DNA from: an uncultured Chitinophagales bacterium
GTDB taxonomy: Bacteria > Bacteroidota > Bacteroidia > Chitinophagales > JAHDHT01
Direction: 5' to 3'
DNA length: 41,094 nucleotides
Assembly: GCA_938023075.1 (NCBI GenBank)
Contig: CALHDG010000091.1
Span: 1-41,094 of the forward strand
This document shows, piece by piece, positions 4,777 through 40,276 of this stretch. The stretch's first letter is position 1. Each line of letters begins with the position of its first letter. The translations under genes and the position numbers were made by a program. The notes under the pieces were generated by a model that saw only the letters and a program-made list of their open reading frames with translations, was not told where the DNA came from and did not search any database.

Positions 4777-4900
4777 TGTAATACCAATTTGATTGTAAAA
4801 AGTGATACTAAAATTTGACAAGCTAACCCATAAACTAGTTTACACTTTCTTTTTAATTTTTTTTTTGAAGCGAAACTTTGTGGAGTTTAAATAACTTAGG

Positions 4901-4978
4901 TCCCGCTTTCCGCTCAAATGCCATTTGCCTGCGCTTCAAAGCCGCTCAAAATGGCATAACCGCTACAATCGGGGCTAG
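4901..4978 (-). ncRNA. Structured repeat core, copy 1 (Flavo-1-like candidate RNA)
   Basis: Conserved box CCCGCTTTCCGCTCAAATGC on the left and ATAACCGCTACAATCGGGG on the right flank a stem with arms ATGCCATT (4918-4925) and AATGGCAT (4950-4957). Outer CCCG/CGGG can also pair. Read on the minus strand it begins CTAGCCCCGATTGTAGCGG, which from memory resembles the Flavo-1 RNA motif of Bacteroidota. Strand and RNA nature are inference; the stem and boxes are seen directly, and the stem covaries with copies 2 and 3. Confidence 0.55.
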
Positions 4979-5016
4979 GTTGGTCAGTCCGCTCCTTCGT
5001 TAGCTGGCTATTTTTT

Positions 5017-5064
5017 GTGCGTTACAAACGCACTTCTCAAACATCCTCGTTGCAAACGAAGATG
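5017..5064. repeat. REP-like palindrome pair inside cassette copy 1
   Basis: Two adjacent hairpins. The first is perfect, arms GTGCGTT and AACGCAC around ACA (5017-5033). The second has arms CATCCTCGTT and AACGAAGATG around GCA (5042-5064) with one mismatch. The linker begins CTTCTC, as it does in the palindrome cluster at 40307-40402, and every hairpin centre follows the pattern GTT-nnn-AAC, so both belong to one family. Confidence 0.7.
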
Positions 5065-5126
5065 AGTTAGATGCACTCGAAAACAGGAAAGTATCAACCA
5101 CTTTAATAAACTTGTCAAACAGTTGT

Positions 5127-27790: not shown

Positions 27791-27926
27791 GCAGCGAACC
27801 AAATAGCATCACAGAAAGGCGCAGCCCGCTTTCCGCTCAAATGCTATTTGCTTTGCGGCATATGCTGCGCTGCGAAATAGCATAACCGCTGCAATCGGGG
27901 CTAGTTTGCAAAGTTCGGTTCTTTGT
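27791..27926. repeat. Structured repeat element, copy 2 (without outer cassette)
   Basis: This copy has the same inner layout as copies 1 and 3: GCAGCGAACC at the left (27791-27800), the core, and GGTTCTTTGT at the right (27917-27926), which is an imperfect inverted match to the left end. The GACAAG/CTTGTC outer ends are absent. The left flank repeats AAATAGCAT (27801-27809), which is also one arm of the inner stem. Confidence 0.7.
27825..27904 (-). ncRNA. Structured repeat core, copy 2 (Flavo-1-like candidate RNA)
   Basis: Boxes CCCGCTTTCCGCTCAAATGC and ATAACCGCTGCAATCGGGG are identical or nearly so to the other copies. The stem is ATGCTATTT (27841-27849) with AAATAGCAT (27875-27883), nine perfect pairs with a different sequence from copies 1 and 3. 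Minus strand is inferred from resemblance to the Flavo-1 motif, recalled from memory. Confidence 0.55.
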
Positions 27927-37446: not shown

Positions 37447-37709
37447 GACTAATAGACAAGTTTATCTACACAAGAAAGTAGTTGACACAATTTTGATATT
37501 TTTTGAAGCGAAACTATAATGCTTTATAATAACACTTGTCCCGCTTTCCGCTCAAATGCTGCGCCAACGCTGCAAAATCCTACGCTTCAGGCAGCATAAC
37601 CGCTGCAATCGGGGCTAGTTTAAAAACTTTGGTTCTTCGTAGAAAGAAAAAACAGAGACAATCTAAAATAAGAAAGTATCAACTACTTTGATAAACTTGT
37701 CGACTAATA
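37447..37709. mobile_element. TIR-bounded repeat cassette, copy 3, with 8-bp target duplication
   Basis: The cassette itself is 37455-37701 (247 bp). Its first 12 bases GACAAGTTTATC are the exact reverse complement of its last 12, and a second inverted block, AAAGTAGTTGA, follows a few bases inside each end. The flanking 8 bp GACTAATA occur on both sides (37447-37454 and 37702-37709), as expected for a target duplication. It carries no coding frame but contains the structured core (37505-37640). Such small non-autonomous elements are moved by a transposase encoded elsewhere. Confidence 0.72.
37540..37618 (-). ncRNA. Structured repeat core, copy 3 (Flavo-1-like candidate RNA)
   Basis: The same boxes as copies 1 and 2, with the stem ATGCTGC (37556-37562) and GCAGCAT (37591-37597). 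The inner loop sequence is unrelated to the other copies. Minus strand is inferred by resemblance to the Flavo-1 motif. Confidence 0.55.
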
Positions 37710-39169: not shown

Positions 39170-40276
39170 TTAGTTTATCTCAAAATCAATAGCAGAACGT
39201 ATTCTGTAATTATTCCGCTTAAAACTGATTCTACCTCTAACTATACACGGGTGAATTTTGTTCGCTTTGGCAAACGCTATAATTTCGTCATCAGTATAAG
39301 TTTTACTTTTTTGATAAAAGGCTTTCCAATTAGCTTTATTAATTAAATGGCATTCCGCAAATTGGTTGGCTTCCATTTCTTTCGGATCTTTTTTGTAGGC
39401 ACTACTTTGGGCTTTGTAATCCAAATCAATAAACTCTGCTTTATGGTTGTTGAGTAGATGTTCAAAAATATGTGCCAATTCGTGAAAGAGCGTAAAGGCA
39501 AAATTATCTAACCGCTTATAGCGCAAGCTCATGCCTATTGCCGGGTTTTTATCACTCCAAAAAGAAATGCCGTCAACCGGTGCTTGAGGCGGCTTTTTTT
39601 GATAGACCAACTTAATACCAAATGCACTTAGCGTATGTTGAACCTTGTCTAAAGTCTTTTTGTTTTTGGCGATTATCTTTTTCAACGCCCTAATTAGTTC
39701 ATCGCATGTTTTGTAATTAAACGCTTGTACTTTTTGATGAAATGCTTTGTGCTGAACCAACTTTACCCAAGCCAACAGATTAACCGGATCTACTTTTAGC
39801 TTATTTGATCTGCGAAAATGGGCATAATTGGGTTGTGCATATAGGTTGGCTAATTCATCTAAATGCTTTACCGAGTAAATGATTTTTACAATCGGAATAT
39901 CATTTACCGGATCGCCTGTCAGTACTTTTTCTTTTTTAAAAAAGGCTAAGGGTACTTTATCTTTTATTAAACTCCATTGCTCAATGGCTTCTAAACGAGT
40001 TTGATTTTTTTGCTGAATGCGTGCCGTATCTAAATCATAGTTTTTCTGCAACTCCAACCAATAATCGGCACTAATGTTTAAAACTTTTTCAAACAACAAA
40101 GCTAACTCGGCAGGTACATTTCGTTTGCCTTTTATTATTTCGTTTAACTGACTTTTCTTTACACCAATTTGCTGTGCAAAATCAGTTTGTGAAATTTCTC
40201 TTGCTTCTAATTCATCAAACAACACTTCGCCGGGGTGGGTAGCGGTTTGTGGTGTTAGTTCTGTTAATTTTTTCAT
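39170..40276 (-). CDS. higA: HigA-type antitoxin fused to an ImmA/IrrE metallopeptidase domain
   Basis: A 368-residue protein. Residues about 8-75 are a HigA/XRE helix-turn-helix: THPGEVLFDEL, then SQTDFAQQIGVKKSQLNEII. After a linker, the C-terminal half is an ImmA/IrrE peptidase domain with FTLFHELAHIFEHLL (HELAH at 265-269) and the Glu-containing segment MEANQFAECHL (about 301-311). Such fusions are known among HigA relatives; the peptidase part may respond to a signal or degrade a partner, but this is inference. It follows higB on the minus strand; 138 bp with REP-like palindromes separate them, whereas most higBA pairs are nearly adjacent. Confidence 0.88.
   Translation of the reverse strand: MKKLTELTPQTATHPGEVLFDELEAREISQTDFAQQIGVKKSQLNEIIKGKRNVPAELALLFEKVLNISADYWLELQKNYDLDTARIQQKNQTRLEAIEQWSLIKDKVPLAFFKKEKVLTGDPVNDIPIVKIIYSVKHLDELANLYAQPNYAHFRRSNKLKVDPVNLLAWVKLVQHKAFHQKVQAFNYKTCDELIRALKKIIAKNKKTLDKVQHTLSAFGIKLVYQKKPPQAPVDGISFWSDKNPAIGMSLRYKRLDNFAFTLFHELAHIFEHLLNNHKAEFIDLDYKAQSSAYKKDPKEMEANQFAECHLINKANWKAFYQKSKTYTDDEIIAFAKANKIHPCIVRGRISFKRNNYRIRSAIDFEIN

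Follow-up and report, generated by a model that had tools for sequence, protein, structure and literature searches.

The window analyzed here, a stretch of 41,094 nucleotides taken at its full length, is contig C91 (CALHDG010000091.1) in the assembly of an uncultured Chitinophagales bacterium (6.12 Mb in 288 contigs). It holds a cassette of 247 bp at 37455 to 37701, the ends and flanks of which were confirmed to the base, a second copy of the same element, and a related unit without these ends. The features in the window were as follows.

4817 to 5116, plus strand: second, decayed copy of the element, with flanks that agree at just 5 of 8 positions
4895 to 4980, minus strand: Flavo-1 match of the second copy (42.1 bits, passing the gathering score)
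27825 to 27903, plus strand: free Flavo-1-like unit without these ends
37447 to 37454, no strand: target-site duplication, left copy, GACTAATA (from the sequence and the 8-bp rule of the family)
37455 to 37466, plus strand: left terminal inverted repeat, GACAAGTTTATC, an L-type end (from the sequence, the end-pattern search, and end pairing)
37475 to 37485, plus strand: left subterminal inverted block, AAAGTAGTTGA, set 8 bases in from the terminal block
37505 to 37641, no strand: extended structured unit, GAAGCGAAAC ... GGTTCTTCGTA, about 137 bp, with free copies elsewhere in the genome
37533 to 37620, minus strand: match to Flavo-1 (Rfam RF01705; 38.2 bits, E value of 1.2e-6, under the gathering score of 42)
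37679 to 37689, minus strand: right subterminal inverted block, TCAACTACTTT, which abuts the right end directly
37690 to 37701, minus strand: right terminal inverted repeat, GATAAACTTGTC, an R-type end
37702 to 37709, no strand: target-site duplication, right copy, GACTAATA (from the sequence)

The 12-bp terminal blocks GACAAGTTTATC and GATAAACTTGTC are exact inverses of each other, as are the subterminal blocks AAAGTAGTTGA and TCAACTACTTT, and the flanking 8-bp duplication is perfect. Because the second block lies 8 bases in from the left end but abuts the right end, the cassette ends are asymmetric. No open reading frame (ORF) of at least 80 amino acids was found inside 37455 to 37701. In all of this, our analysis agrees with an earlier sequence-only reading of the locus, which had described exact 12-bp inverted ends, a second inverted block, a perfect 8-bp duplication, and no gene. 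Near the cassette, at 39170 to 40276 on the minus strand, is an ORF that encodes an HTH_3 domain together with an IrrE-like peptidase (M78) domain. Compared with shuffled sequences, the cassette folded with a z score of −5.15 as single-stranded RNA (minus strand) and −3.83 as DNA (plus strand), and pairing of the terminal repeats supplies much of this folding signal.

The earlier reading had also described a structured core carried as cargo. That core can now be named, since it corresponds to Flavo-1 (RF01705) in both model match and pairing pattern (PMC2864571), with an outer stem of CCCG (37540 to 37543) and CGGG (37610 to 37613) and an inner stem of ATGCTGC (37556 to 37562) and GCAGCAT (37591 to 37597). 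The best scores among the other copies in this genome reached 65.9. The conserved unit, which starts at GAAGCGAAAC and ends near CTTCGTA, reaches beyond the Rfam model. The description as cargo was borne out as well, in that Flavo-1 also exists outside these ends and the ends also carry other cargo. In a 603-kb sample of the genome chosen regardless of the element, there were 37 cores, of which 12 had both ends, 9 had one end, and 16 had neither.

A search of the host genome for segments bounded by these ends, suggested as a check in the earlier reading, returned many further copies, and neither of the findings which that reading had named as refuting a MITE was made. At least 40 matches to the cassette were found, including itself, and the others had 79 to 95% identity. 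With no more than one mismatch, the 12-bp end occurred 145 + 148 times, compared with 26 + 32 times for a reversed control pattern; the 31-bp left-end pattern, with up to 3 mismatches, occurred 48 + 45 times, compared with 0 for its control. The host genome carries roughly 100 elements that end in this way. We fetched DNA stretches by position and paired the ends by script, tolerating 3 mismatches at most in the first block. The pair counts reported below depend on this end-matching rule, and they are not densities, as many of the stretches were picked around the end pattern. The evidence comes mostly from this one draft genome, to which a Saprospiraceae metagenome-assembled genome (MAG) adds three paired elements.

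Among the 68 distinct pairs of ends less than 1 kb apart in the host genome, 66 combined an L-type end with an R-type end, and thus the asymmetry seen in the window is kept across the family. Based on crude ORF calls, 51 of the 54 elements with sufficient context lay outside ORFs of 100 amino acids, compared with ∼21% of random positions, and 5 of 51 lay between divergent genes, compared with about a quarter expected.

The duplication is a property of the family. In a first batch of own-genome pairs less than 1 kb apart, the flanks agreed at 7 or 8 of 8 positions in 34 of 61 pairs (24 of them perfect), compared with 1.06 pairs on average and at most 7 when partners were shuffled. The enlarged set gave 35 of 68 pairs (shuffle mean, 1.0; maximum, 6). 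When duplication lengths from 3 to 12 were scanned, there was a signal at 8 only (24 perfect, compared with 0 to 2). The flanks agreed at 6 or fewer positions in about half of the pairs, and hence many of the copies are old.

To find empty sites, the flanks of an element were joined by script minus one target copy and matched to the fetched DNA, and the junctions were read. Two other members of the family were found to have empty sites, each with one copy of the 8-bp target and both at paralogous positions. One of these elements (L022, with duplication AATTGAGG and a cargo other than Flavo-1) lies inside a dispersed repeat, copies of which at L006 and L131 are uninterrupted at that point; the other (L074, with duplication AAAAATGT and Flavo-1 cargo) was inserted within a further family member. 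The junction of a third candidate (L016) aligned less cleanly, and this candidate was left out of the count. In the one other genome of the same taxonomic family, there was no match to the cassette. The region is AT rich and short repeats are frequent in it, so that inverted ends and an 8-bp repeat might arise by chance; however, the copy number, the uniform 8-bp duplication, and the paralogous empty sites refute this explanation, which we regard as extremely improbable.

The ends do not always enclose Flavo-1. When the interiors of the paired elements were clustered, 47 held Flavo-1, 7 held a palindrome of the GGTCGCAAAAATTGCGACC type, 6 held a repeat of the GCCGGATAATCT type, and 1 (L021) was a singleton. 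At least three unrelated cargos other than Flavo-1 are thus found between the same asymmetric ends in the host genome, and the three paired elements of the Saprospiraceae MAG (G299, found by way of locus L080) carry a further cargo class. Perfect 8-bp flanks were present in elements of several cargo classes. In addition, six Flavo-1 copies (L132, L044, L089, L042, L043, and L101) share an insertion of ∼200 bp that splits the 3' arm of Flavo-1, always at the same position. These six copies are at different sites, and three of them have perfect duplications (GATTTTTT, GACCAAAG, and GAATTTTA). The insertion might instead have been gained by a single copy following the final transposition of that copy, with recombination spreading it afterward, but we consider this less likely given the different flanks of the six copies and the three perfect duplications. 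Together, the other cargos and the moved interrupted copies indicate that an element can move without Flavo-1 and without an intact Flavo-1 structure.

Nested elements were observed at two other places. In G299, L139:1501-2069 contains the 241-bp miniature inverted-repeat transposable element (MITE) of L135 and L136 with two palindromic mini-elements inside it, one beginning GGCACTACGG with an 8-bp duplication (GAAAAAAT) and one beginning TCTATTGATACCCC with a 9-bp duplication (CTCGAAAAG); the empty sites of both are visible in L135 and L136. At L101:12158-12870, a composite Flavo-1 MITE holds a further nested element beginning GCTACCCGTCTAAGCC, which seems, judged by eye, to have a 9-bp duplication (GACACTTAG).

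A transposase with the same ends, which the earlier reading had proposed to look for, did not turn up among the families searched. The single match to IS1595 (PF12762) is without these ends, none of the seven matches to DDE_Tnp_1 (PF01609) in the host genome is flanked by them, and Transposase_mut (PF00872) had no match. Of 13 end pairs spaced 1 to 5 kb apart, none had flanks agreeing at more than 6 of 8 positions. An autonomous copy could have been lost from an assembly in 288 contigs.

The distribution of the ends differs greatly from that of the core. Across 299 genomes of the order, the 31-bp left-end pattern was found in one, the host itself, and in 0 of the 298 others. The right-end pattern was absent from viral contigs, and searches with the cassette gave no match in plasmids and nothing beyond one weak 32-base match in phages. 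Flavo-1, in contrast, was detected in 44 of the 100 genomes searched from the order, several of which had ∼42 copies among the matches listed. Given how much wider the distribution of Flavo-1 is, its capture by the ends is likelier than the reverse. Of the two options in the earlier reading, that the RNA-like element has become part of a MITE therefore fits better than that it travels as one.

A core this dispersed and numerous could itself be mobile, as a REP-like hairpin dependent on a Y1/RAYT transposase, with the GACAAG ends acquired secondarily. Besides the high copy number, this is favored by the Y1_Tnp genes that the host genome encodes and by a comparison in another genus, where Flavo-1 is present in one species (G059, L250), whereas a sister species (G046, L258) lacks it in the orthologous gap between the response-regulator gene and trxB. 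However, this comparison shows presence and absence only, without a clean junction, and loss in the sister species would explain it as well as gain; none of the nine Y1_Tnp loci in the host genome has a nearby Flavo-1 match at an E value of ≤0.01, and the 8-bp duplications go with the GACAAG ends. We consider self-mobility of Flavo-1 unlikely. A REP/RAYT element was likewise rejected, as none of the nine loci has Flavo-1 hairpins flanking the Y1 gene. Three of them (L153, L157, and L158) are RAYT-like genes of ∼180 to 224 amino acids with Flavo-1 absent nearby.

Flavo-1 entered the literature as a candidate structured RNA of Bacteroidetes, rated a probable RNA (Weinberg et al. 2010; PMC2864571), and the free units in the host genome covary strongly. 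Exchanges between CCCG/CGGG and CCTG/CAGG, exchanges between TT/AA and TA/TA, and several types of inner arm were observed among them. In a set of 28 free-unit sequences analyzed with small custom scripts, the plus-strand consensus fold had 95% of cells paired, compared with a shuffle mean of 81%, and 12 pairs had changed on both sides. The MITE-borne units are more uniform, and their variation and covariation are chiefly in the inner arm. The rating and the covariation would suit a functional RNA kept by selection, with the MITE spreading a useful regulatory module. However, a DNA hairpin is also compatible with the covariation, motif-interrupted copies have persisted and moved, and Flavo-1 matches in Flavobacterium psychrophilum are sense or antisense to transcribed regions, occurring in either orientation and often outside such regions (PMC9723704). 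A functional RNA is thus a rather doubtful account of the family. Flavo-1 may instead be primarily a dispersed mobile DNA repeat and not an RNA gene, its covariation reflecting DNA hairpins or exchange between copies and its mobile carriers differing among lineages, the carrier in this genome being a MITE family whose cargos are interchangeable; we put this broader proposal forward tentatively, as a possibility below even chance.

The ends, the uniform 8-bp duplication, the many copies, the empty sites of two members, the free units, and the alternative cargos are direct observations. From these, we conclude with high confidence that 37455 to 37701 is a nonautonomous MITE, presumably moved in trans, with an 8-bp target duplication, and that its interior is a captured Flavo-1 repeat of ∼137 bp carried as a passenger. 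The uniform duplication together with the inverted ends indicates a DDE transposase acting in trans; encoded elsewhere, it would recognize the asymmetric two-block ends and insert the element into AT-rich targets, which it would cut with a stagger of 8 bp. The cassette interior would have been captured as a copy of the widespread structured repeat, with the Rfam Flavo-1 motif at its center. The class of the transposase and the direction of capture are likewise probable readings of this evidence, and the copy in the window presumably moved in the same way as the two members with empty sites. Unrelated cargos are moved by these very ends, and Flavo-1-interrupted elements still moved; both observations argue that Flavo-1 is the passenger and not the engine.

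The nearest precedent for the Flavo-1 MITE is BrickBuilt of Porphyromonas gingivalis, which its authors conclude is a MITE that trapped a direct repeat (PMC4596501). Like the cassette family, BrickBuilt and MITE464 of that species are gene-less and intergenic, have terminal inverted repeats, and place similar ends around unrelated interiors. In contrast, their ends are most like those of ISPg1 and ISPg9 and differ from those of the cassette, their duplications vary in length whereas those of the cassette family are uniformly 8 bp, and BrickBuilt is without an Rfam match whereas the cassette cargo is an Rfam family (PMC4596501). MITECca01 of Cardinium resembles the cassette in being gene-less, circa 240 bp long, and present in many copies with inverted ends, but its IS982-family parent is known and present, whereas no parent was found for the cassette family (PMC9769881). 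Our literature search found no publication linking Flavo-1 or an Rfam structure to a MITE or transposable element.

This finding gives a physical history to an Rfam family rated as a probable RNA, in that carriage by a MITE put many of its copies into this genome. Carried and free copies need to be told apart in surveys of Flavo-1 copy number and wherever function is inferred from that number. Finally, the asymmetric ends with their interchangeable cargos are a natural experiment on what a transposase requires.
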